Assembly: GCA_015494005.1 (NCBI GenBank)
Contig: WGCB01000262.1
Coordinates: 1-13,391, forward strand
Source: Caldilineaceae bacterium
GTDB taxonomy: Bacteria > Chloroflexota > Anaerolineae > Caldilineales > Caldilineaceae
DNA: 13,391 nt
Reading direction: 5' to 3'
Shown: in pieces, positions 869 through 13,110 of the stretch
Position numbering within the stretch: position 1 is the first letter of the stretch
Layout: each line of letters begins with the position of its first letter
The notes under the pieces: model-generated
Database searches by the model: none
The model's input: only the letters and a program-made list of their open reading frames with translations
Told to the model about the DNA's origin: nothing
Made by a program: the position numbers and the translations under genes

Positions 869-1636
869 CTAAGCGGATGCCTCGCGCCGTTCCCGGACCG
901 GCTCCAGGACGGCGTAGAGGTTCAGGTTGCCCTCCTTCCCGTCCGCCCGGAAGATCTGCCGGATGCGCAGGCCGGCATCCCGGGCCAGGCGCTCCAGCTC
1001 CGTCCTATCCACCTGATGCACGTAGCGCACCGCGTAGGGCCCCTGCTGCCAAGGCAGGAGAGCGTCCCCGGGCTCCACGTCCTGGGGCGAGAGGCCCACC
1101 GTGGACCAGTCCAGGAGCTTGGCCCGGAAGCGGGCCGCCTCCAGGAACTGCCAGAAGGAGAGGATGACCACCTCCTGGCTGAGGCGGGCCAGATCCTGGA
1201 CCACCCGCCGCCGCAGCTCGTAGCCAGGCAGGTGCTGGAGCGTGGCCAGGCAGACCACCACCTGGAAGTGCGGCTCCTCCCGGCCCAGCACCTGGGTCCA
1301 GGCCGGGTCCGCCAGGTCCGCCTGGAGGAAGCGGCAGCGGGTGCGGGTCAGGTGGGCCGTGCTCTCCTGGGCCAGGGCCAGCAGCCGGGGATCCTGGTCC
1401 ACGCCGGTGTACTCCGTGTGGCCGCCCCGCTCCTCCAAGAGCCGAGCCAGCCGCCCGTTGCCGCAGCCCACGTCCAGGACAGTGGCCGGGCGCTGTTTCG
1501 TACCCTCTGGGATGTGGGGTAAAATAGCCAGCAGGCCCGGCGTCCACCCCTGGCGGGTGCGGTGGAACTCGTCCGCCACCGTCTCGTAGAAGCGCCGGTT
1601 CACCGCCAGGAGCCGGCGTTGGATCTCTGGTCTCAT
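869..1636 (-). CDS. Class I SAM methyltransferase, Trm9/ALKBH8-like (putative tRNA wobble-uridine methyltransferase)
   Basis: A 255-residue Rossmann-fold methyltransferase. Motif I is VLDVGCGNG at 53-61, with acidic D80 after the second strand and D107 in QADLAD. Features point to the Trm9/ALKBH8 family rather than a generic UbiE type: an N-terminal FYETVADEFHRTRQGW (16-31) matching the family's YxxIAxxFxxTRxxxW pattern, SFWQF (160-164) where the family has a CWALEQ-like strand, GDALLPW (190-196), and RYVHQVDRTELERL (204-217) matching the VYHLYREGEL region near the C-terminus. Eukaryotic Trm9 methylates the carboxymethyl group of cm5U34 in tRNA to give mcm5U, directly after Elongator/Elp3. 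The gene is divergent from elp3 with 59 bp between starts, which supports a shared pathway. An in-frame TGA 9 nt upstream fixes the ATG at 1636 as the most upstream ATG; the ribosome site is weak. Fold is certain; substrate is inferred from motifs and context. Confidence 0.85.
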   Translation of the reverse strand: MRPEIQRRLLAVNRRFYETVADEFHRTRQGWTPGLLAILPHIPEGTKQRPATVLDVGCGNGRLARLLEERGGHTEYTGVDQDPRLLALAQESTAHLTRTRCRFLQADLADPAWTQVLGREEPHFQVVVCLATLQHLPGYELRRRVVQDLARLSQEVVILSFWQFLEAARFRAKLLDWSTVGLSPQDVEPGDALLPWQQGPYAVRYVHQVDRTELERLARDAGLRIRQIFRADGKEGNLNLYAVLEPVRERREASA

Positions 1637-1695
1637 TCTGGCTCAATCTGGTTTAGCCGAGCAGGCCCAGGCCGCTCGCTTCCTTTCGTGGATCC

Positions 1696-3399
1696 ATGAA
1701 ACGCATCTACGCAGCAGACGAAATCCCATCCGAGGTGCTGGAGAGCAGCCGTCGCTGGCGTCAGCGGCGCCAGTTCGATCCCAGGGCCTACGCGGGGATC
1801 CTGCACGCTGTTTTCCAGGAGATCCAAGGAGTGCCTGAGGGGGAGTGGGACGATCGCCGCTTACGATCTATTTTATCCCGTTTCCCGAAGGACGGCAAAG
1901 GGTTCTTTTCCAAGGCCGATCTCATCGCCGGGTACCGGCACCTGGTGGCCGAGGGGGATCTGGAGCCGGATCCCACGGTGCTGGGGCGGATCCGCATGAA
2001 GCCGGTGCGCACGGCCAGCGGCGTGGCCCCGGTGACGGTCCTCACCGCGCCGGCCGGCTGCCCGGCCCGCTGCATCTTCTGCCCGGACGACGTGCGCATG
2101 CCCAAGAGCTACATCTTCGACGAGCCGGGCTGCCAGCGGGCCGAGCGGGACGGCTTCGATCCCTTCAAGCAGACCCTGGGGCGCATCCAGGCCTTCGAGC
2201 AGATCGGCCACCAGGCCCACAAGGTGGAGCTCCTCATCCTGGGCGGCACCTGGAGCGCCTACAGCCGGGACTACCGGGAGTGGTTCGTGCGTCGCTGTTT
2301 CGACGCCATGAACCAGGCCGGGGATCCGAGCTACCAGGCGGCAGCCACCCTGGAGGAGGCCCAGGCCCGGAACGTCCACGCCACCCACCGCAACGTGGGC
2401 CTGGTGGTGGAGACCCGGCCGGACTGGATCACCCCGGAGGAGATCGTCCACCTGCGGCGGCTGGGGGTCACCAAGGTGCAGATCGGCGTCCAGAGCCTGG
2501 ACGACCGCATCCTGGCCCTGAACAAGCGGGGACACGACGTGGCCGCGGTGCGCCGGGCCCTGGGTCTCCTGCGCACGGCCGGCTTCAAGCTGAACCTGCA
2601 CTGGATGCCCAACCTCTACGGGGCCACCCCGGAGAGCGACCGAGCCGATTTCGCCCGCTTCTTCCATGACCCGGCCATCCGCCCGGACGAGCTGAAGATC
2701 TACCCCTGCTCCCTGATCCAGGGCACGGAGCTCTACCAGCTCTGGCAGGAGGGCAAGTACCGGCCCTACAGCCAGGAGGAGCTCATCGCCCTGCTGGCGG
2801 ACGTGAAGCCCACCATTCCGCCCTACACCCGGGTGAACCGCCTCTTCCGGGACATCCCCGCCCACCACATCCGGGCCGGGGTGAAGCTGGGCAACCTGCG
2901 GGAGTACGTCCACCAGGAGCTGGCACGCCGGGGAACCCGCTGCGGCTGCATCCGCTGCCGGGAGGTGCGGCGGCGGGAGGTGCGCCAGGAGGAGCTGGAG
3001 CTGCGGGTCCACCGCTACGAAACGGACCTGACCCAGGAGCACTTCCTCCACTTTGTCACCACGGAGGCCAGCCCGGAGCCGGGGCTCATCGCCGCCTTCC
3101 TGCGCCTGAGCCTGCCTCGGACGCCGGACGCGGGCAGCCGGGCCTTCCTGGAGGAGATCCAGGGCCACGCCCTGATCCGGGAGGTCCACGTCTACGGCCC
3201 GGCCCTGGCCATCGGCAAGGAGGAGACCGGTGCGGCCCAGCACGCGGGCCTGGGCAGCCAGCTCATCCAGGAGGCGCGACGCATCAGCCGGGAGGCCGGC
3301 TTCCGGCGCATCAGCGTCATCGCGGCCACGGGCACCCGGGGCTACTACGCCCGCCGGGGTTTCCAGCAGGGCCAGCTCTACATGAGCGGCGACTGCTAA
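1696..3399 (+). CDS. elp3: Elp3 family radical SAM / GNAT tRNA uridine(34) carboxymethylation enzyme
   Basis: A 567-residue protein with the full Elp3 architecture. Elp3 uses radical SAM chemistry and acetyl-CoA to build the carboxymethyl group at C5 of tRNA wobble uridine. The N-terminal tRNA-binding region is about 1-95. The radical SAM core (about 100-400) has the [4Fe-4S] cysteines C122, C126 and C129 in GCPARCIFCP, then FDPFKQTLGRIQAF and LILGGTWSAY (about 180-189), VVETRPDW (237-244) and VQIGVQSLDD. A candidate zinc site is C338 (YPCSLIQGTEL) with C416, C418 and C421. The C-terminal GNAT domain (about 440-567) carries REVHVYGPALAIG, the acetyl-CoA loop QHAGLGSQL (515-523) and GTRGYYARRGF (546-556). 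Length and domain order fit stand-alone archaeal and bacterial Elp3; no other Elongator subunit is visible. No clear Shine-Dalgarno precedes the ATG. It ends 13 bp from the convergent phosphatase gene. Confidence 0.96.
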   Translation: MKRIYAADEIPSEVLESSRRWRQRRQFDPRAYAGILHAVFQEIQGVPEGEWDDRRLRSILSRFPKDGKGFFSKADLIAGYRHLVAEGDLEPDPTVLGRIRMKPVRTASGVAPVTVLTAPAGCPARCIFCPDDVRMPKSYIFDEPGCQRAERDGFDPFKQTLGRIQAFEQIGHQAHKVELLILGGTWSAYSRDYREWFVRRCFDAMNQAGDPSYQAAATLEEAQARNVHATHRNVGLVVETRPDWITPEEIVHLRRLGVTKVQIGVQSLDDRILALNKRGHDVAAVRRALGLLRTAGFKLNLHWMPNLYGATPESDRADFARFFHDPAIRPDELKIYPCSLIQGTELYQLWQEGKYRPYSQEELIALLADVKPTIPPYTRVNRLFRDIPAHHIRAGVKLGNLREYVHQELARRGTRCGCIRCREVRRREVRQEELELRVHRYETDLTQEHFLHFVTTEASPEPGLIAAFLRLSLPRTPDAGSRAFLEEIQGHALIREVHVYGPALAIGKEETGAAQHAGLGSQLIQEARRISREAGFRRISVIAATGTRGYYARRGFQQGQLYMSGDC

Positions 3400-3412: not shown

Positions 3413-3868
3413 TCATCCCCGGGCCTTCGCGGCCAGGAGGGGGAGGAGCTGGGCCCGCATGGCATCCCGCACCTGGCGGTAGACGGCCAGGCGTTGGGCC
3501 CGGTCACCCGTGGCCTCGTAGGGGTCCGGGAAAGGGAGCAGTAGCCGCTCCTGCACCTGGGGCCACTCCTGGGCCACAGGGCCCAGCCGGTCGCTGAGGA
3601 GGACCACCAGGTCCCAGGGCTGCTCTCGGAAGGCCTCCACGGAGCGGGGCTGGTGGTCGCGGATGTCGATGCCCAGCTCCTGCATGGCCTCCGCAGCCAG
3701 AGGGCTCACCTGCTGGCCTGGGCGGATCCCCGCGGAGGCGGCCTGCCAGGCGTCCCCCAGGAAGTGGTTGACCAGGGCGGCGGCCATGGGGCTGCGGCAG
3801 GTGTTGCCCAGGCAGACGAAAAGGACTCGACGGGGCGAGGAGGGAGACGGGCCAGTTGGCTCGGTCAT
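3413..3868 (-). CDS. Low-molecular-weight protein tyrosine phosphatase family protein (ArsC-like)
   Basis: A 151-residue protein of the LMW-PTP / arsenate reductase fold. The P-loop CLGNTCRS holds the CX5R motif with nucleophile C19 and R25, directly after the first strand (RVLFVCLG). The general-acid loop is FPDPYEATG with D115. The helix ending in YRQVRDAMRAQL is typical of the family. Proteins like this are often annotated as arsenate reductase, but the thioredoxin-coupled enzymes need two further cysteines after the P-loop. Here the only cysteines are C19 and C24, and the equivalent stretch reads VVLLSDRLG, so that mechanism is not supported. A phosphatase role, or glutaredoxin/mycothiol-type reduction, remains possible. 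The first about 13 residues are Pro/Ser-rich and may be trimmed by a later start. It lies behind the terminator of the lipoprotein gene, so it is probably transcribed separately. Confidence 0.88.
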   Translation of the reverse strand: MTEPTGPSPSSPRRVLFVCLGNTCRSPMAAALVNHFLGDAWQAASAGIRPGQQVSPLAAEAMQELGIDIRDHQPRSVEAFREQPWDLVVLLSDRLGPVAQEWPQVQERLLLPFPDPYEATGDRAQRLAVYRQVRDAMRAQLLPLLAAKARG

Positions 3869-3966: not shown

Positions 3967-4977
3967 CTAGCGGGCCACGGCCATGCCGCCTTCCGGCAGG
4001 AAGACGTGCAGGTCGAAGTCCGTGGTCTGGATCACGGGCAGCAGCTCGTGCACCGTGGCCAGGATGTCACCCATGTTCATGCCCGGGGCCACCAGCTCCC
4101 ACAGGTTCATCTGATCGGCCACATTCAGGAGGTGCTGCAGCTCGCCGTTGCCCCAGGTCAGGGTGGGCAGGGCCTTGCCGTTCACCATGATGTGGATGCC
4201 CTCGGCGTCGGTGCTGATGGTCAGGCTCTTCACACCCCGCTCGGAGAGGCTCTTGACCAGCTGCGGGTTCAGGCGCAGGGCGTAGACAGGAGCGCCGGTC
4301 AGGGCGGACCATTCGGCGTCGGTCAGGTCGCCCAGGGTGAAGCTGCCGTCCGGGTTGTAGAAGACAGGCAGGTTGATCCGGGGGGGCACACCCACCGCGG
4401 CCAGGAACTCTTCCTGGGCCTTCTTGGCGGCCATGGCGGCGGTGTCGTCACCCTCCACGTAGAAGGGGATGATCTCCGCGCCTTCCGGCACAGGGAAGCG
4501 CACGATCACGCCGATGCCCAGGCGCTGCACCAGGGGCAGGACCTTCTCGGCCATGGGGATGGCCACGCCGAAGGTGTTCAGGACCTCCGCGGTGGTCTGC
4601 AGGGACTCGCCGTCCCAGACCAGGGAGGGGATGGGCTGGCCGTTCACCAGGAGGAGCAGGCCGTCGGCCTTGTTGTCGATCTGGATGTGCTGGATGTTGC
4701 CGGCCACCATGTAGTCCACCCATTCCTTGGGCACGGCCAGGGTGGAGAGGTCAGCGCCAGCCAGCGCGCCCAGCTCGGCTACAGGGACGTTGCCGACCGA
4801 GGGGGAACCGTCTGCGTTGATGTCGACCACCAGGGCCGGCAGGTCGATCACCAACTCCGTGGGATCCTTGGCCAGGGCTGCCGATGACCCCGCACCCACC
4901 CGTGGCGCGCAGCCGGACAGGACCAGCATGGCCACGAGGAGCAAGGAAGCCCAGACCGCAATGCGTCGATTGTACAT
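3967..4977 (-). CDS. Lipoprotein of unknown function made of two tandem copies of one domain
   Basis: The ATG at 4977 is preceded by AGGAGGT at good spacing and gives a 336-residue protein with a textbook lipoprotein signal: MYNRR, a hydrophobic core, then the lipobox LSGC with C23 as the lipidated residue. Starts further upstream would bury the signal and are rejected. The mature part holds two related units, about 42-170 and 199-332. Matching landmarks are DLPALVVDINADGS (45-58) with NLPVFYNPDGS (202-212), LLLLVNGQPIPSLVW (107-121) with IHIMVNGKALPTLTW (261-275), and LPLVQ plus PEG with LPVIQ plus PEG near each end. I recognise no known family; tandem small beta-rich sheets are a guess. It lies downstream of phoU but has its own candidate promoter and terminator. 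The position suggests an extracytoplasmic protein perhaps linked to phosphate uptake, but nothing in the sequence proves that. Confidence 0.88.
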   Translation of the reverse strand: MYNRRIAVWASLLLVAMLVLSGCAPRVGAGSSAALAKDPTELVIDLPALVVDINADGSPSVGNVPVAELGALAGADLSTLAVPKEWVDYMVAGNIQHIQIDNKADGLLLLVNGQPIPSLVWDGESLQTTAEVLNTFGVAIPMAEKVLPLVQRLGIGVIVRFPVPEGAEIIPFYVEGDDTAAMAAKKAQEEFLAAVGVPPRINLPVFYNPDGSFTLGDLTDAEWSALTGAPVYALRLNPQLVKSLSERGVKSLTISTDAEGIHIMVNGKALPTLTWGNGELQHLLNVADQMNLWELVAPGMNMGDILATVHELLPVIQTTDFDLHVFLPEGGMAVAR

Positions 4978-5153
4978 CGGGTACCTCCTGAGACTATGTG
5001 AGTTGAGTAGAGCTGATTGGGGATAAAGAATAACTGGTGCGAACCAACAATCCGGGTGGGCGAAACCACGTTTCACTGCCGAAATCACGGGCGCAACCGG
5101 TGCGGGAGCGATGGTCTGGCCTGAGTGGCGCAATTGTGAGTCCGGTTACAGTG

Positions 5154-5189: not shown

Positions 5190-5885
5190 TTATCGTCTAT
5201 CCGAAACGGCGTCGGAGACCATCTCGTCCATCAGCATGTCCATCTCGATGAGCTCGCCGGTGACGGTGAAAAGGATCCGCTCGCAGATGTTGGTGACCCG
5301 ATCCCCGGCCCGCTCCAGGTTGTGGGCCGCCCACAGGATGTGGTTGGCCTGGTCCGCGAGGGTGGGATCCTGGACGATGAGCTGGATCATCGCCTGCTGG
5401 ATCTGGTTGTAGATGGCATCCAGCACATCGTCCTCCTTGGGGATGGCCCAGGCGGCCTCCACGTCCCGTTCCACAAAGGCGACCAGGGCCTGGTCCAACA
5501 TGCGGCTGGCCTGCTGGCACATGTCCAGAAGCGGCGCCGGCGGGGTGATCCCCGGGGCGCTGCCCAGGAGCAGGGTGATCTTGCCGATGCCCTTGGCGTA
5601 ATCCCCCATGCGCTCCAGCTCGGTGGCGATCTCCAGCACCGCGGCCAGGAAGCGGATGTCCCCGGCCACGGGCTGCTGGGTGGCGATCACCCGCAGGCAG
5701 TCGGCCTCGATGGCGTAGCGCCGCTCGTTGATGGCCTGATCCGCGGCAATCAGTTCCATCGCTTCGGTCAGAGCCTTTCGGCGCAGGACCTTCACGGAGC
5801 GGCAGAGGGCGTTGGTGACCATGCTGCCCAGCAGGATCACCTGGTCCTGGATCTTCTCCAGCTCCTGTTCGTAACGCCGTCGCAT
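5190..5885 (-). CDS. phoU: Phosphate signalling protein PhoU
   Basis: PhoU is a cytoplasmic helical metal-binding protein that links the Pst transporter to the PhoR kinase and turns the Pho response off when phosphate is plentiful. The ATG at 5885 follows AAAGGAG and gives 231 residues, the normal length. It has two three-helix repeats, each with the family's E-x3-D metal motif: ELERMGDYAKGI (89-100) and NLERAGDRVTNICE (189-202). The start MRRRYEQELEKIQDQVILLG is typical. The reading frame stays open upstream into pstB, but the ribosome site and family alignment favour this start. It is the last gene of the pst operon, 47 bp after pstB. No hairpin terminator is visible after its stop, so some read-through into the lipoprotein gene is possible. 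Confidence 0.97.
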   Translation of the reverse strand: MRRRYEQELEKIQDQVILLGSMVTNALCRSVKVLRRKALTEAMELIAADQAINERRYAIEADCLRVIATQQPVAGDIRFLAAVLEIATELERMGDYAKGIGKITLLLGSAPGITPPAPLLDMCQQASRMLDQALVAFVERDVEAAWAIPKEDDVLDAIYNQIQQAMIQLIVQDPTLADQANHILWAAHNLERAGDRVTNICERILFTVTGELIEMDMLMDEMVSDAVSDRR

Positions 5886-5932
5886 CGTTTTTTCTCCTTT
5901 GTCGCTCAGGGCGGCACGCATCGGGGACGCCG

Positions 5933-6769
5933 CTAGCCGAACCGCCCGGTGATGTAGTCCTCGGTGCGCTGGTCCTGCGGGGTGGTGAAGATCTGCTGGG
6001 TGGGCCCGAACTCCACCAGATGCCCCACCCGCTCCTCGTCCACGGTGAAGAAGGCAGTGTAGTCCGAGACCCGGGCCGCCTGCTGCATGTTGTGGGTGAC
6101 CACCACGATGGTGTACTCCTGGGCCAGCTCCTGCATCAGGTCCTCGATCTTCAGGGTGGCGATGGGATCCAGGGCCGAGGCCGGCTCGTCCATGAGGATC
6201 ACCTCCGGCCGGATGGCGATGGCCCGGGCGATGCAGAGGCGCTGCTGCTGCCCCCCGGAGATGGCCGTGCCGGGCTGGTGCAGCTTGTCCTTCACCTCGT
6301 CCCAGAGGGCGGCCTGGCGCAGGGCCTGCTCCACCAGGCCATCCATGTCCCCCTGGAAGCCGTTGATGCGGGCGCCCCAGGCCACGTTGTCGTAGATGGA
6401 GCGGGCAAAGGGGTTGGGCTTCTGGAAGACCATGCCGATGCGCCGCCGCACCTCCACCGGGTCCACGTCCGGGGCGTAGATGTCCTTGCCGTGGAAGAGC
6501 ACCTGGCCCGACACCCGCGCAGCAGGGATCAGGTCGTTCATGCGGTTCAGGCAGCGCAGAAACGTGCTCTTGCCGCACCCGGAGGGCCCGATGAGCGCGG
6601 TGATGCGGTTGCGAGGGATCTGCAGGTGGATCCCCGCCACCGCCTTGGTCTCCCCGTAGGAGACGCTCAGGTCCCGGATGTCCAGGGCCACATCCACGAA
6701 GTCCAGCCGGGCATCGGCAGCAGGGGCCTGGGGGGCGTCCAGGTGGACTTGGTCTAGGGTTCGGTTCAT
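5933..6769 (-). CDS. pstB: Phosphate ABC transporter ATP-binding protein PstB
   Basis: The cytoplasmic ATPase that powers high-affinity phosphate import through PstC/PstA. At 278 residues it is slightly longer than usual because of an N-terminal tail of about 25 residues. Walker A is GPSGCGKST (61-69), the Q-loop is VFQKPNPF (Q116), the signature is [14 protein letters not shown] (170-183), Walker B is [13 protein letters not shown] (190-202) and the switch histidine is H226 in VVTHNMQQA. The FQKPNPF-S-I-DN context and the C-terminal [10 protein letters not shown] are PstB-specific. The signature begins with Ile instead of the common Leu, a conservative change. The ATG at 6769 has GAGGAG upstream. 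It lies 43 bp after pstA and 47 bp before phoU in a compact operon. Confidence 0.98.
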
Positions 6770-6812
6770 GGTTTGATTCTCCTCGCGTGGTCAGGGGCGT
6801 TCGGGAAAGCTG

Positions 6813-7799
6813 TCAGTCGTAGCGTCGACGGTAGCGGTTGCGCAGGATGATGGCCACGGAGTTCATGGCGAAGAGCATGGCCAGCAGCACGATGATCCCC
6901 GCGGCCGCGTTCACGTGGAAGCCCGCCTGGGGCCGGGAGACCCAGTTGAAGATCTGGATGGGCAGCACGGTGAAGGGCGTGCGCAGGGCCTCCAGGGAAG
7001 CCGGGGGCAGGTAGGCGATGTAGGTGAGGGCGCCGATGGTGATCAGGGGCGCGGTCTCGCCGATGGCCCGGGAGAGGGCCAGGATGGTGCCGGTGAGGAT
7101 CCCGGGCATGGCCATAGGCAGCACGTGGTCCCGGAGCACCTCCCACTTGGTGGCGCCCAGGGCCAGCCCGGCCTGGCGCAGGCTGTCCGGGACGGCCTTC
7201 AGCGCCTCCCGGGTGGCGATGATGATCACCGGCATGACCAGCAGGCTCATGGTCAGCCCTCCGGCCAGGATGGTGCGGCCGTTGGTGAGGGGGGAGAGGT
7301 AGCGCACGAAGAGCTCCAGGCCCAGCAGGCCGTAGATGATGGAGGGCACGCCGGCCAGGTTGGCGATGTTGATCTCGATGAGCCGGGTGAGCCGGTTCTT
7401 GGGCGCGTACTCCTCCAGATAGAGGGCCGCGGAGACGCCCAGGGGGAAGGCGATCGCCGCGGTGAGGCCCATGAGCCAGAGCGAGCCCACCAGGGGCGAG
7501 AGGATCCCGGCCCGGGCCGGTCGCCGGGAGGGGAAGCTGGTCAGGAACTGCCAGCTCAGCCGGGGCAGCCCCTCCTGGAAGACGCTCCACAGCAGCCAGG
7601 CCAGCACCACCAGGCCGAAGACCGTGGCCAGCACAGTCAAGGGCTGGAAGAGGGCGTCCAGGCGTTTTCGCCAGGCCAGGTTCGGGCGGAAGCCCCCCTC
7701 CGAGGCCACCGGCAGGGGTTTCTTCACCGGCCTGCGGGCAGGCGGGACAGTCATGGTGGGTTCCAGGCGAATCAACGATGGGTTGTTCTCGCTCATCAT
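6813..7799 (-). CDS. pstA: Phosphate ABC transporter permease PstA
   Basis: One of the two membrane channel subunits of the Pst importer, 328 residues. A cytoplasmic N-terminal tail of about 50 residues, rich in Pro and Arg, is followed by six hydrophobic segments, including about 53-75, 103-128, 141-165, 180-196, 235-260 and 297-320. The cytoplasmic EAA loop that docks on PstB is clear at 198-235 ([23 protein letters not shown] onward, shown here in part). [12 protein letters not shown] (150-161) and [10 protein letters not shown] are PstA hallmarks. The start codon overlaps the pstC stop (ATGATGA), which implies translational coupling. A second ATG follows directly at 7796, so the true first residue may be one later. 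The tail before the first membrane segment is longer than in many PstA proteins. Confidence 0.97.
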
Positions 7800-8734
7800 T
7801 CGTATTGCTCCCGGTAGCGGCGCACGATCCAGTCACTGATCACGTTCAACGTGAGGGTGATGAGGAAGAGGGTCATGCCCACGGCAAAGATGGTGCGGTA
7901 GGCCAGGCTGCCAGCCGGGGTGTCCCCCAGGCTGACCTGGACGATGAAGGCGGTCATGGTCTCGATGGGCACCAGAGGGTTCAGGGTCAGGCGGGGGTTC
8001 TGCCCCGCGGCGATGGCCATGATCATGGTCTCCCCCACGGCCCGGGAGACCCCCAGGATGAAGGCGGCCACGATCCCGGAGAGGGCGGCCGGCAGCACCA
8101 CTCCCCGGATCACCTCCCACTTGGTGGCGCCCAGGGCGTAGGCCCCTTCCCGCAGGGCCCGGGGCACCGCGTGGATGGCGTCCTCGCTGATGGAGGCCAC
8201 CGTGGGGATGATCATCACCCCCATGACCAGGCCGGCGCTCAGGGCGTTGAAGGTGGCCATCCCTGGGAAGAGCTGCTTGAGCATGGGGGTCACGGTCAGG
8301 AGGGCGAAGTAGCCGTAGACCACCGTGGGGATCCCGGCCAGGAGCTCCAGGGCCGGTTTCAGGAAGGAGCGGGCCCGGGGCGAGGCATACTCGCTCAGGT
8401 AGATGGCCGCCAGCAGGCCCACCGGCAAGGCCAGGGCCAGGGCGATGGCCGTGGTCAGCAGGGTGGCGCTGGCCAGGACCAGGATCCCGAAGTGCTTCTC
8501 GGTGAAGAGGGGGGTCCACTGGGTGCTGGTCAGGAAATCCCAGAGGGAGACCTCCCGAAAGAAGGCCACGGTCTCGAAGAGCAGCACGGCGATGATGCCC
8601 AGGGTGGTGAGGATGGAGACCAGGGCCGCACCGCCGAAGAGGGCTCGGAGGATCCGCTCCTTGCGGTGTTTCCGGCGCAGGCGGGCGGCCACATCGGCTT
8701 CCTGGCCGCCCCACCCGATTTCGATCAGGCTCAT
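7796..8734 (-). CDS. pstC: Phosphate ABC transporter permease PstC
   Basis: The partner channel subunit of PstA, 312 residues from the ATG at 8734. That start has AAAGGAGC about 8 nt upstream; an upstream in-frame TTG at 8755 would put this ribosome site inside the gene and is rejected. Six hydrophobic segments are visible, among them about 32-58, 83-112, 127-148, 163-181, 217-241 and 280-302. The EAA loop runs from E184 to about 220 and includes the [14 protein letters not shown] core. [15 protein letters not shown] (131-145) and [10 protein letters not shown] (230-239) are characteristic of PstC. It starts 37 bp after the pstS stop and overlaps the pstA start, the usual pstSCAB order. Confidence 0.97.
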
Positions 8735-8771
8735 GGCACTGCTCCTTTGCGGCAACGGGGTATGTCCATGG

Positions 8772-9827
<1,056 letters not shown>

Positions 9828-9828
9828 T

Positions 9829-9861
9829 CCTTTCCGTGGTGGATCCTTTCCGTAGTGGATC
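9829..9861. repeat. Two tandem copies of a 16-bp unit containing the pstS ribosome site
   Basis: The plus strand reads CCTTTCCGTGGTGGATC at 9829-9845 and CCTTTCCGTAGTGGATC at 9845-9861, a period of 16 with one difference. On the transcript this gives two GGAAAGGA ribosome-binding sequences 16 nt apart in front of pstS. Only the downstream copy is near a usable start codon. Further GGATCGAT repeats follow at 9858 and 9868. Confidence 0.85.
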
Positions 9862-9906
9862 GATGGCGGATCGATTCGATAGTGCATGGCTTTTGTCATC
9901 ACCCTC

Positions 9907-9912
9907 AGCATA
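9907..9912 (-). promoter_or_regulatory. Candidate -10 element of the pstS promoter
   Basis: TATGCT on the minus strand lies 9 bp downstream of the last TTAACC repeat. No good -35 is present at 17 bp; the Pho box overlaps that place, as is usual for PhoB/PhoP-activated promoters. The leader would be about 70 nt. This is a single weak hexamer and is tentative. Confidence 0.35.
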
Positions 9913-9921
9913 GCCGGGACA

Positions 9922-9994
9922 GGTTAACAGACGGGGTGGGTCGCTGGGCCACAGGGTTAAGAGTGAGCGAACGGCGTGTAAACGTTTGGTTAAA
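9922..9994 (-). promoter_or_regulatory. Pho box array: 11-bp-phased direct repeats upstream of pstS
   Basis: On the minus strand the repeats are TTTAACC (9994-9988), TTTACAC (9982-9976), TTCGCTC (9971-9965), TTAACCC (9960-9954) and TTAACC (9927-9922). The steps between their TT positions are 12, 11, 11 and 33 bp, the last being three turns of 11. OmpR-type phosphate regulators (E. coli PhoB, Bacillus and Streptomyces PhoP) bind tandem direct repeats of 11 bp period, with TTAACA-like units in Bacillus. The regulator gene is next door and the pst operon lies directly downstream. Three of the units are strong and the third is weak. Confidence 0.7.
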
Positions 9995-10029
9995 GGGGGC
10001 TGGGATTCGGTGCAGTGCACCGGCCCAAC

Positions 10030-10054
10030 AAAAAAGGCGAGCCATCGGCTCGCC
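10030..10054 (-). terminator. Intrinsic terminator after phoR
   Basis: On the minus strand a perfect 8-bp stem, GGCGAGCC with GGCTCGCC (arms 10047-10054 and 10036-10043), closes a 3-nt loop and is followed by six T (10035-10030). It begins 23 nt after the phoR stop. It separates the phoBR transcript from the pst promoter. Confidence 0.9.
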
Positions 10055-10077
10055 GTCCATTTTGTCGCCGTTCCGTT

Positions 10078-11550
10078 CTACGCGTCCCGGGCCACGCTCC
10101 CTGCCTCCCGGGCCACGGGCAGGCTGAAGGAAATGGTCGTCCCCTGGCCCTCCCGGCTCTCTGCCCAGATGCGGCCGCCGTGGGCCTGGACGATGTGCTT
10201 GGCGATGGCCAGGCCCAGGCCGGTGCCCTGGCCGGAGCGGGCCCGATCCGCCCGGAAGAAGCGCTCGAAGATCCGGGGCAGGTCCTCCGCGGGGATGCCC
10301 ACGCCCGTGTCCGCCACCTGGATCACCACTCCAGGCGGCTCACCCTGCCCGGGAGAGGAGGCCTGGACGTAGGCGCTGACCCGGATCTGCCCACCGGCTG
10401 GGGTGAACTTGATGGCGTTGTGCACCAGGTTGGTGATCACCTGCTGGGTGCGCTCTTGGTCCGCCAAGACCCGGGGCAGGCGGGCTGGCAGGTCCACCAC
10501 CAGGGTGATGCCCGCCCGGGCCGCCTGGGTCTGGAGCCGCTCCACCGGCCCCAGGACGATTTCACTCACCGGGGTGGCGGCCCAGTGGAAGGGCACCTGC
10601 CGGGACTCGATGCGGGAGAGCTCCAGCAGCTCCTGCACCATCTGGGCCAGGGAGTCCACCTCCGTCTCGATCCGGTCCAGGAAGCGCTGGGCCGCGGGTG
10701 GATCCGCCAAGGCGCCGTCCCGCAGGGTCTCCACCAGGGCCCGGAGCGAGGCCAGGGGCGTGCGCAGCTCGTGGGAGACGTTGCTGATGAAGTCCTTGCG
10801 GATGCGCTCCAGCTGCCGCCGCTTGCTCAGATCCCGCAGAACCACCAGGTAGCCCTTGCGGAAGCCGTCCCAGAAGGGGGCCACCGTCACCCGCAGGGCC
10901 CGGCCATCGTTCATCTCCAGGAGCTCGCTCTGGAGCTCGTCCTCCTCCTGGCACTCCTCCAGCAGCTCCACCATGCGGTGATCCCGCACCACCTGGGGGA
11001 AGGAAGCGCCGACCGTCACCGGCCCGGTCAACCGGAGCAGGCGGGAGAGGGCCGGGTTGGCCCGCTGCACCCGCCCCGCCTCGTCCAGGATCAGGATGCC
11101 GTCCTGCAGGTGGTCCAGGACCGCGGCCATGCGACTTTCCTTCTGGGCCAGCCGGTCCATGCGCCCCTGAGAGACGGCCACCAGCCGGTTGAAGGCCAGG
11201 CTGAGCTGGGCGATCTCGTCCCTGGCCGAGGAGGTGGCGGGCTCGCCCTCGTCCTGGATCAGCTCTTCAGCCATGCGGGTCAGGCGGCGGAGGGGGCGGG
11301 CCAGGCTTTCGGACAGGATGGAGGCCAGGGCCAAGGTGGCCAGGAGGGCCAGGGCGCCCCCGGCCAGGCCCAGGAAGATCAGGGCGCGGACGGCGCCATC
11401 CAGCTGGGCGACCAGCTCGGGGTTGACGTCCTGGATGGGGAGGGCTTGGAGCTGGCGGATGGCCAGGAAGGTGAGGCCGAAGGCAAGGAGGCCGGTCAGG
11501 AGGAGGAAGGGAAGGGCGATGCGCCAGCGGATGGATCGGAAAGGGTGCAT
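10078..11550 (-). CDS. phoR: Phosphate-regulon sensor histidine kinase PhoR
   Basis: A membrane sensor kinase that phosphorylates the adjacent response regulator when phosphate is scarce. From the ATG at 11550 it has 490 residues: membrane segment 1 at about 10-31, a short outside loop of only about 25 residues, segment 2 at about 55-79, HAMP about 80-130, PAS about 137-240 (AVLDHLQDGILILDEAGRV), HisKA with H260 in SNVSHELRTPLASL, and HATPase with the N box NLVHNAIKF (374-382), G1 DTGVGIP (414-420), F box IFERFFRAD and G2 GTGLGLAIAK (442-451). The tiny outside loop fits PhoR proteins that sense through Pst/PhoU rather than by binding a ligand outside. The frame is open for 64 codons more upstream, but that part is Arg/Pro-rich and overlaps the regulator gene, so I reject it. 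The gap to phoB is 53 bp; the ribosome site is weak. Confidence 0.95.
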   Translation of the reverse strand: MHPFRSIRWRIALPFLLLTGLLAFGLTFLAIRQLQALPIQDVNPELVAQLDGAVRALIFLGLAGGALALLATLALASILSESLARPLRRLTRMAEELIQDEGEPATSSARDEIAQLSLAFNRLVAVSQGRMDRLAQKESRMAAVLDHLQDGILILDEAGRVQRANPALSRLLRLTGPVTVGASFPQVVRDHRMVELLEECQEEDELQSELLEMNDGRALRVTVAPFWDGFRKGYLVVLRDLSKRRQLERIRKDFISNVSHELRTPLASLRALVETLRDGALADPPAAQRFLDRIETEVDSLAQMVQELLELSRIESRQVPFHWAATPVSEIVLGPVERLQTQAARAGITLVVDLPARLPRVLADQERTQQVITNLVHNAIKFTPAGGQIRVSAYVQASSPGQGEPPGVVIQVADTGVGIPAEDLPRIFERFFRADRARSGQGTGLGLAIAKHIVQAHGGRIWAESREGQGTTISFSLPVAREAGSVARDA

Positions 11551-11603
11551 TTGGGGTGCTACTCGCTTTGAACGGCTCGGGCTACGTCCAGGGCTCGCCA
11601 GGG

Positions 11604-12326
11604 TCAGCCCTCGAAGCGGTAGCCGACGCCCCGCACGGTGACCAGGCGGGTGGGGTTGGCCGGGTCGTCCTCGATCTTCTGACGCAGCCAGCGCACATGC
11701 ACGTCCACGGTGCGGCTGCCGCCGCCGTAGTCCCAGCCCCACACCCGCTCCAGGATCAGCTCCCGGCCCAGGGCGATGCCCCGGTTCTGGGCCAGGAAGA
11801 GGAGCAGGTCGAACTCCCGGGGCTTCAGGTGGAGGAGCTCCTGCCCCCGGTAGACCTCCCGCCGCTCGGGATCGATGACCAGATCCCCGAAGACCAGCTG
11901 GCTGGCCGGCCGGGTCTCCGCCCCACCGTTGCCGGATTCGGCCAGGGTCTCCTCCCGGGTGAGGCGGACCCGGCGCAGGTTGGCCTTGATCCGGGCCATG
12001 AGCTCCCGCATGCTGAAGGGCTTGGCCAGGTAGTCGTCCGCGCCCATCTCCAGGCCCACCACCCGGTCCACCTCGTCGCTGCGGGCGGTGAGCATGAGGA
12101 TGGGCACGTTGCTCTCCTGGCGCAGGATGCGGCAGACTTCGAAGCCGTCCAGGCCTGGGAGCATCACGTCCAGGACGATCAGGTCCGGCTGTTCCTGGCG
12201 GGCCATCTCCAGGGCCTGGAGGCCGTCGGTGGCGGTGCGGACTTCGTAGCCCTGGCGCACCAGGTTGTACTCCAGGGTCTCTAGCAGGCTCGGTTCGTCC
12301 TCAACAACCAGCACTTTCTGCGCCAT
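11604..12326 (-). CDS. phoB: OmpR/PhoB-type phosphate response regulator
   Basis: A 240-residue response regulator. The receiver domain (about 1-120) has the acidic pair E9-D10, phosphoacceptor D53 in [12 protein letters not shown]80 in MLTAR and K102 in AKPF. After a linker of about 25 residues comes an OmpR-type winged helix (about 145-240) with [12 protein letters not shown], the recognition helix [16 protein letters not shown] (204-219) and [10 protein letters not shown] at the end. Paired with phoR and next to pst, it is best named PhoB; PhoP is the equivalent Gram-positive name. The ATG at 12326 has GAAAGG upstream; in-frame ATGs further up add a non-conserved tail. It probably binds the repeats at 9922-9994. 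It starts 75 bp after the DUF47 gene, with no terminator between, so co-transcription is likely. Confidence 0.95.
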
Positions 12327-12401
12327 GGTTGCCTTTCGTTCGGTGCGGCTGAATGCATCCATCCCCTTCAGCTTACCAACCGACGGCTCGCCTGCCAAAT
12401 C

Positions 12402-13028
12402 TCAGGTCATCTTGACCACCACCGAGCCGATGACGTTGGCGGCCATGTCGGCCCGGTCCGCGGCGTTGCTCACGTGGCGGTAGACCTCTCGGGTGCGCAG
12501 CATCTCCATGATGTGGTGGGTGTTCTCCGGCCCGGAGAAGAGATCCGCCACGGCCTGCCGGTAGACCCGCTCCACCTGGTTCTCCCGGTGTTTGGTGCGC
12601 CGGGCGTGGTCCAGGGCCACCATGGGGTTCTCGTCCAGGCGCTGCATGGCCAGGAGCAGCTCGTCCCCGGCCTCCCGCAGGCGGTTCACCATCTCGATGA
12701 GGTATTTGTCCGGCTTGACCTTGAGCAGCCGGATCTCGACGACCGTGCTGTAGGCGTAGTCCAGCACGTCGTCCAGGTAGAGGGAGAGATCGTAGATGTC
12801 CTCCCGGTCGAAAGGGGTGATGAAGGTCTTGTGCAGCTCGTCGATGAGGATGCGCCGCAGTTCGTCCCCTTCCTTCTCGTACCGTTCCACCTGCTGGGCC
12901 GCCTCCTCGGCCTCGGTGGTGACGAAACGCCACAGGGCCTCGGTGCCCACCTCCACCTTCTCGGCCTGCTGCTCCAGCAGATCGATGAAAATGTTCTTGC
13001 GTTTGCCTGTGCGTGACCAAAAACCCAT
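12402..13028 (-). CDS. DUF47 family PhoU-like protein associated with Pit transporter
   Basis: A 208-residue, mostly helical cytoplasmic protein of the DUF47 (PhoU-like, TIGR00153) family. The start MGFWSRTGKRKNIFIDLLEQQAEKV, here from the ATG at 13028 with a GGGGGAGGA ribosome site, is typical, as are the metal-type motifs RYEKEGDELRR (49-59), ITPFDREDIYDLSLYLDDVLDY (middle part, about 70-91) and the closing DRADMAANVIGSVVVK (191-206). DUF47 genes usually sit beside pit genes and are thought to modulate low-affinity phosphate permeases, much as PhoU does for Pst. Here it follows pit by 82 bp and precedes phoB by 75 bp. The upstream extension of the frame lacks family features and is rejected. 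Confidence 0.94.
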   Translation of the reverse strand: MGFWSRTGKRKNIFIDLLEQQAEKVEVGTEALWRFVTTEAEEAAQQVERYEKEGDELRRILIDELHKTFITPFDREDIYDLSLYLDDVLDYAYSTVVEIRLLKVKPDKYLIEMVNRLREAGDELLLAMQRLDENPMVALDHARRTKHRENQVERVYRQAVADLFSGPENTHHIMEMLRTREVYRHVSNAADRADMAANVIGSVVVKMT

Positions 13029-13110
13029 GCTTGTCCTCCCCCTGGTTCGCTGTGCCGGCTGCTTCCGGCAGGGAATGGTTGTCTGTTCTGTTGCCCCGCC
13101 CTTCACGCTG

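Follow-up and report, generated by a model that had tools for sequence, protein, structure and literature searches.

The 13,391-nucleotide contig WGCB01000262.1 of a Caldilineaceae bacterium (the window, meaning the whole stretch analysed) carries a gene for a stand-alone Elp3 with radical SAM and KAT domains (elp3, 1696..3399, plus strand; ATG start, 567 residues) and, divergent from it, a gene for a Trm9-like class I S-adenosylmethionine (SAM)-dependent methyltransferase (869..1636, minus strand; ATG at 1636, 255 residues). The two genes probably constitute a minimal bacterial route of the Elongator/Trm9 type, in which Elp3 and the methyltransferase together give 5-methoxycarbonylmethyluridine or its 2-thio derivative at the wobble position of tRNA (mcm5(s2)U34), standing in for MnmE and MnmG. 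Elp3 alone would use SAM and acetyl-CoA to make 5-carboxymethyluridine (cm5U) at U34, a function expected from its family; the methyltransferase would then esterify the carboxyl group in a SAM-dependent step to give mcm5U, and in some tRNAs MnmA would thiolate the base at position 2, yielding mcm5s2U. That this route replaces MnmE/MnmG is suggested by the genomic exclusion described below. On balance, we also favour the fuller proposal that the pathway is complete with two stand-alone proteins, works without Trm112, replaces MnmE/MnmG, exists as two subfamilies in the Chloroflexota and has moved as a pair among Chloroflexota, Patescibacteria and Myxococcota. An Elp3 plus Trm9-like pathway had been put forward in a first-pass annotation of the sequence, and it is supported by the sequence tests, some of them weak, and by the finding that Elp3 never occurred together with MnmG or MnmE.

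The same annotation placed the two starts 59 bp apart on opposite strands, and the open reading frame (ORF) coordinates agree (1636 versus 1696). The gap between the divergent starts (1637..1695, 59 bp, no strand assigned) is presumed to be a putative promoter region shared by the two genes.

The product of elp3 is unambiguously an Elp3 by its family model and its structural database matches. It matched TIGR01211 with 503 bits (cut-off 350) over residues 95-564, after 94 N-terminal residues that precede the match, and its matches in the Protein Data Bank (PDB) were all Elp3 proteins, the top ones being 6iaz, 6iad and 6ia8 (6iaz_A, E 5e-106), which are structures of Methanocaldococcus infernus Elp3 (MinElp3; PMC6367351). 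The radical SAM cysteines lie in the motif CPARCIFC at residues 122-129. Residues K150, K266, Q461, H463 and Y517 of MinElp3 correspond to K176, K298, E496, H498 and Y550 of the window protein; acetyl-CoA hydrolysis by MinElp3 requires K150, K266, Q461 and Y517 (PMC6367351). A glutamate at the place of Q461 is also found in the Elp3 of Dehalococcoides mccartyi (DmcElp3), where it is E386 by our reading of PMC6367351, and a near-identical Elp3 has RELHVYG there. Formation of cm5U34 has been demonstrated for archaeal Elp3 (PMC13315578).

The neighbourhood survey called for by the first-pass annotation showed that the pair is conserved in the family, the class, the phylum and other phyla. Among 100 genomes (the window genome and 99 relatives; methyltransferase matches at E 1e-10 or better), the methyltransferase was found in 63, Elp3 in 65 and both in 62. 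In 54 of the 62 genomes with both genes the two shared a contig, the matched stretches being no more than about 1.1 kb apart, and in all 54 the genes were divergent. In the only genome with a methyltransferase match alone (G004), the adjoining sequence encodes Elp3 up to residue 200, where the contig breaks off, and three of the 100 had Elp3 without a methyltransferase match. In one of these (G044) the neighbour of elp3 is not visible because the Elp3 match extends to the contig end; in the other two (G054 and G066) a methyltransferase of the window type was not found in the stretches fetched around elp3. Across the 63 positive genomes, the methyltransferase match was single in 59, split into two pieces of one frame in three (G037, G038 and G043) and accompanied by an extra weak partial match in another (G056). 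The Fisher tests of co-occurrence made on the 100 genomes take no account of relatedness; counted across 42 families, both genes were present in 16, Elp3 alone in two and neither in 24 (15 with MnmG only, nine with none of the three), so that the pair co-occurs in 16 of the 18 families that have Elp3.

The exclusion of the usual bacterial enzymes was complete in the genomes sampled. MnmG was present in 19 and MnmE in 20 of the 100 genomes, and neither was found in any of the 65 with Elp3; in a phylum sample of 121 genomes, MnmG was present in 55 and in none of the 24 that had Elp3. Elp3 and MnmE/MnmG are mutually exclusive in these genomes. MnmA, the enzyme that would supply the thiolation, was found in 37 of 41 genomes, including that of the window. 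Eleven relatives had no Elp3, MnmG or MnmE at the thresholds used (G048, G053, G055, G069, G079, G082, G085, G086 and G088-G090), and several of these are near-complete, G055 being a single contig at 98% completeness; G030 and G098 are likewise negative for all three, at 73-74% completeness only. The wobble uridine may be unmodified in such organisms, or they may use a third route.

A wider scan of species genomes, made with a profile of the methyltransferase family (profile A1, built from 38 proteins), gave at least 409 confirmed relatives, of which the best 80 were examined as named loci. The nearest of these were from Caldilineaceae and other Chloroflexota metagenome assemblies, and a gap of 59-65 bp recurred in many of the Caldilineaceae loci. 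Elp3 was encoded within the stretch in 67 of the 80 and was divergent in 66; in the other (L156), 3.5 kb and other ORFs separate the two genes. Among the best 80 were four loci from Patescibacteria/Paceibacterota and three from Myxococcota (labelled Deltaproteobacteria or Myxococcales), in all of which the Elp3 frame was about 600 residues or more and its aligned part began 53-137 bp from the methyltransferase match (53-68 bp in L177, L181 and L183 of Patescibacteria and L178 of Myxococcota). All seven grouped with the same Thermoflexus-like Chloroflexota in both the methyltransferase tree (support 100/99) and the Elp3 tree (100/99); ten rows of the latter were partial matches, and these ten, together with three further loci, were checked and have full-length frames. 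Elp3 and methyltransferase distances were correlated (r 0.87 for 64 of the 67 loci), and none of 999 permutations gave a value as high. The shared tree placement and the correlation are compatible with transfer as one unit, and the two genes may have moved between phyla together. In six relatives an ORF of about 210 residues lies between the two genes on the strand of elp3 (L112 4356-5114, L114 1912-2538, L119 4353-5114, L120 4353-4979, L130 4261-4938 and L162 4282-4923); these frames are open and homologous, and resemble what we take to be the Uma2/DUF820 family.

The relation of the methyltransferase to Trm9 is suggested by its family profile and by motifs at both ends of the protein. Against 177,635 PDB sequences, profile A1 matched Yarrowia lipolytica Trm9 (5cm2) first, with 53.4 bits, in an alignment that spans positions 25-224, from the N-terminal TR to beyond the RY.H motif; 5cm2 was the only one among the 60 matches listed whose best stretch passed position 162. 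A haloarchaeal Trm9 homologue from Natronorubrum bangense, found with a Trm9 sequence, aligned with the profile over residues 12-249 and scored 86 bits, compared with at most 66.9 bits for 41 ordinary methyltransferases of the phylum (43 loci were taken and two without a match dropped) and 53-57 bits for Trm9. As a separate observation, a stretch of the actinobacterium Nonomuraea gerenzanensis (NZ_LT559118.1, L270 4001-4666) matches 93% of the length of this haloarchaeal protein with 30% identity. Three Trm9/ALKBH8-like landmarks reported earlier for the window protein are all present, with the correction that two residues, not three, separate TR from W: the N-terminal motif comprises Y17, A21, F24, T27-R28 and W31 (Y..A..F..TR, residues 17-28, at 1553..1588, minus strand), and GDALLPW (190-196) and RYVHQVDRTEL (204-214) stand near the C-terminus (residues 190-214, at 995..1069, minus strand), both sets of nucleotide coordinates being derived by hand from the residue numbers. 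Full-length homologues were retrieved for 59 of the 63 positive genomes, and in the alignment of these R28, H135, R142, W162, D191, W196 and R204 were invariant. The ordinary methyltransferases carried the family residue at position 27 in none of 41 cases, at 60 in one, at 142 in seven and at 162 in two; they had been trimmed 40 residues past the match, so that the zero counts at positions 191-239 are no fair negative.

In yeast Trm9, the substitutions R29A, H115A, R241A, Y243A and N271A impair tRNA affinity and turnover (PMC5372719). By alignment, R28 of the window protein corresponds to R29 and R204 to R241, and both are invariant (59/59). H135, next to the position equivalent to H115, is conserved in 77 of 80 proteins, and N271 may match a conserved near-terminal asparagine (N239), with some uncertainty in the alignment register. 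The complete set of the five active-site residues is not present in the window protein, which appears to be Trm9-like and which we do not call a Trm9 orthologue.

In three methyltransferase trees the family did not group within the ordinary enzymes of its phylum (19-35 rows per tree), the one exception being a long-branched row next to it in the fuller tree, and the nearest outside rows to Trm9 were the Elp3-linked methyltransferases; deep support was weak unless long branches were pruned. In the pruned tree, where 19 of 35 ordinary and 17 of 28 Elp3-linked rows had been picked by hand to drop long branches and near-duplicates, the family joined Trm9 with support of 96/92. Grouping with small-molecule methyltransferases had been named beforehand as an outcome that would speak against the assignment; in these trees the family stood apart from the ordinary enzymes with weak deep support, and its strong link to Trm9 was obtained only after pruning.

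Several results weigh against the assignment to Trm9 or against the pathway itself. The comparison of Trm9 with generic models, also proposed earlier, came out in favour of Trm9, which headed the PDB matches of the family profile by a small margin of 3 bits over the next methyltransferase (50 bits), and Pfam and NCBIfam gave generic methyltransferase models alone for the window protein and no Trm9-specific model. Some ordinary methyltransferases of the phylum outscored Trm9 with profile A1 (up to 66.9 bits), in the central domain only. When a single Trm9 sequence was used as the query, the window protein was not among the matches listed from its own genome, and of 21 searched genomes that encode the orthologue only four gave it as the best hit (G003, G015, G016 and G049); a profile of the C-terminal part of the family gave no Trm9 match at E 10. 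The position of H115 is occupied by Q134 in the window protein (among 80 proteins, 53 have H here, 24 have Q and three a gap) and that of Y243 by V206 (V, C, A or L in the family, with three gaps). The deep branches of the fuller tree (35 of 41 ordinary and 28 Elp3-linked rows) were not resolved, and in a tree to which a second, Dehalococcoides type of methyltransferase (described below) had been added, the support fell to 61/87 (34 ordinary, 16 Elp3-linked and seven of 11 Dehalococcoides-type rows). The predicted structure of the window protein (mean predicted local distance difference test score, 95.9) had as its best structural matches METTL6 and many others, closely bunched; fold comparison was set aside as a means of telling families apart, as methyltransferase families scored alike. 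As to the gene pair, the two genes were on different contigs in eight of the 62 genomes with both (contig breaks are possible by the coordinates in two, G007 and G025), and no elp3 was present in the stretch at 13 of the 80 named loci. Finally, our searches turned up no published tRNA chemistry on these organisms.

A second subfamily of methyltransferase occupies the same position in other Chloroflexota. Of the 24 genomes with Elp3 in the phylum sample, 13 had a methyltransferase of the window type; by the coordinates, its gene shares a contig with elp3 in 12 of these. At the remaining 11 Elp3 loci another type of methyltransferase stood beside elp3, divergent in 11/11, with 46-66 bits against profile A1, which falls below the threshold of 1e-15 used for this sample; there are therefore two sequence subfamilies in the same position. 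Twelve other genomes with weak matches to the profile (13 matches, 58.8-66.0 bits) had no Elp3, and their proteins were classed as ordinary methyltransferases. The Elp3 of G105, one of these 11, matched the D. mccartyi Elp3 of crystal structure 5l7j along 458 of 459 residues at 985 bits, and the divergent methyltransferase gene starts 44 bp from its gene; the label 'Dehalococcoides-type' is based on this one of the 11 that was compared with the PDB. The yeast Trm9 residues R29, H115, R241 and Y243 are all kept in the 11 Dehalococcoides-type methyltransferases, as they also are in Y. lipolytica Trm9 and the Natronorubrum homologue, and a profile of the 11 (A4) had Trm9 as joint top match in the PDB with 76 bits, tied with 1ve3, for which positions 37-139 only were aligned. 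By these measures the Dehalococcoides type looks more Trm9-like than the family of the window protein.

Trm9 normally has Trm112 as a partner, and the first-pass annotation saw none; this is correct as far as the window goes, but two matches to PF03966 (Trm112p) occur on other contigs of the genome. One is a protein of 131 residues (L105 640-1035, minus strand; contig 639 of the window genome, G000) that has no cysteines and, by eye, a hydrophobic N-terminal stretch; the second (C718) lies inside a 940-residue frame. PF03966 was found in 52 of the 63 methyltransferase-positive genomes versus 30 of the 37 negative ones, and is therefore not associated with the methyltransferase. A Trm112 encoded between the two genes was also considered and rejected, as the ORFs at ten loci picked for their longer gaps, read by eye, included none with a visible zinc knuckle; six of the ten are the loci with the Uma2/DUF820-like frame. 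The methyltransferase is probably independent of a classical zinc-binding Trm112, a suggestion that we make tentatively.

How the methyltransferase acts could be read in other ways. It seems unlikely, although the genomic evidence for the pair fits equally well, that the pathway is the same and the ester is not its end product, being instead an intermediate on the way to, for example, the amide 5-carbamoylmethyluridine (ncm5U), or that methylation takes place at a different position of Elp3-modified tRNAs. In a yeast trm9 mutant ncm5U accumulates (PMC3110198), so that the order of the ester and amide steps is debated, and METTL6, by its PDB naming a tRNA 3-methylcytidine methyltransferase, is among the structural matches; set against this, the equivalents of R29 and R241, which are important for the placement of cm5U34 in Trm9, are invariant.

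It is very improbable that the methyltransferase methylates a protein such as Elp3, or has a regulatory role in the pathway, instead of acting on tRNA. Generic family models are silent on the substrate and two of the published Trm9 residues are missing from the window protein, but both of the subfamilies adjacent to Elp3 have Trm9 at the top of their PDB matches, alone or tied, and Trm9-type motifs are conserved at both ends. We give least credence to an unrelated small-molecule methyltransferase lying beside elp3 by chance. Its generic Pfam matches, and the preference of the single-sequence Trm9 search for other methyltransferases of the window genome, would suit such an enzyme, which would be expected to show no tie to tRNA modification genes; the gene is instead conserved beside elp3, and a coincidental neighbour is contradicted by the 54 divergent pairs among 62 genomes, by the recurrence of the pair in other phyla, by co-occurrence in 16 of 18 Elp3-bearing families, and by the second subfamily. 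A tRNA-modifying route through Elp3 and the Trm9-like enzyme to the methyl ester is the interpretation that we retain.

The rest of the window, which is contig 262 of an assembly of 4.17 Mb in 820 contigs (88% complete), encodes a low-molecular-weight phosphatase or arsenate-reductase-like protein (3413-3868, minus strand) convergent with elp3, for which NCBIfam ArsC models matched below their cut-offs, and a 388-residue ORF (3967-5133, minus strand) whose N-terminus looks lipoprotein-like by eye and for which no Pfam model matched at 1e-3. A block of phosphate genes follows (5190-13106), with a PhoU-like ORF, an ABC ATPase, two permeases, a PstS-like binding protein, a histidine kinase, a response regulator and a DUF47/PhoU_div protein; it has no visible tie to elp3.

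Archaeal Elp3 and Trm9 homologues were described in 2008 and are clustered in Sulfolobus solfataricus (PMC2584109), and mcm5U in Haloferax volcanii is cited as documented (PMC7663514). In a 2020 review, mcm5U is assigned to archaea and eukaryotes, and bacteria are credited with 5-carboxymethylaminomethyluridine (cmnm5U), 5-methylaminomethyluridine (mnm5U) and 5-aminomethyluridine (nm5U) only (PMC7694415); another review places bacterial Elp3 in Dehalococcoides and notes a lack of direct evidence for xcm5U derivatives in that genus (PMC7663514). A 2026 paper notes Elp3 alone in numerous bacteria and ties defects of the wobble modification to human neurodegenerative disease (PMC13315578). In the titles and abstract openings of the open-licence literature, the matches listed included no description of a bacterial Elp3-Trm9 pair. 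If the proposed route is correct, mcm5U would not be limited to eukaryotes and archaea, the second enzyme of the bacterial Elp3 pathway is named and its product can be tested, and small model proteins become available for a modification linked to neurodegenerative disease; the mutual exclusion of Elp3 and MnmG in the genomes sampled is a finding already in hand.

Compared with eukaryotic Elongator and Trm9-Trm112 or ALKBH8, the bacterial pair has matching catalytic residues in Elp3, a family profile that hits Trm9 best, and the residues R29 and R241. It differs in that Elp3 of the window type is stand-alone as far as seen (no search was made for the remaining subunits of Elongator), that Trm112p matches show no association with the methyltransferase, and that the window protein has retained neither H115 nor Y243. 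The bacterial MnmE-MnmG system, which makes cmnm5U and mnm5U, has the same target, C5 of U34 (PMC7663514), but uses other enzymes and gives another product, and MnmG was absent from all Elp3-bearing genomes of both samples (65 and 24) and MnmE from all 65 of the first. DmcElp3 is also a bacterial stand-alone Elp3, and its near-copy in G105 likewise has a divergent Trm9-like neighbour, although from a different and more Trm9-like subfamily; DmcElp3 lacks an N-terminal extension according to PMC6367351, whereas the window protein has 94 residues there. In the archaea H. volcanii and S. solfataricus, Elp3 occurs without other Elongator subunits and together with a Trm9 homologue (PMC2584109, PMC5372719), and the haloarchaeal homologue aligns with the window family over nearly its whole length; unlike the archaeal pair, the bacterial one is a divergent gene pair found across phyla, with thiolation presumably provided by MnmA and not by Tuc1.

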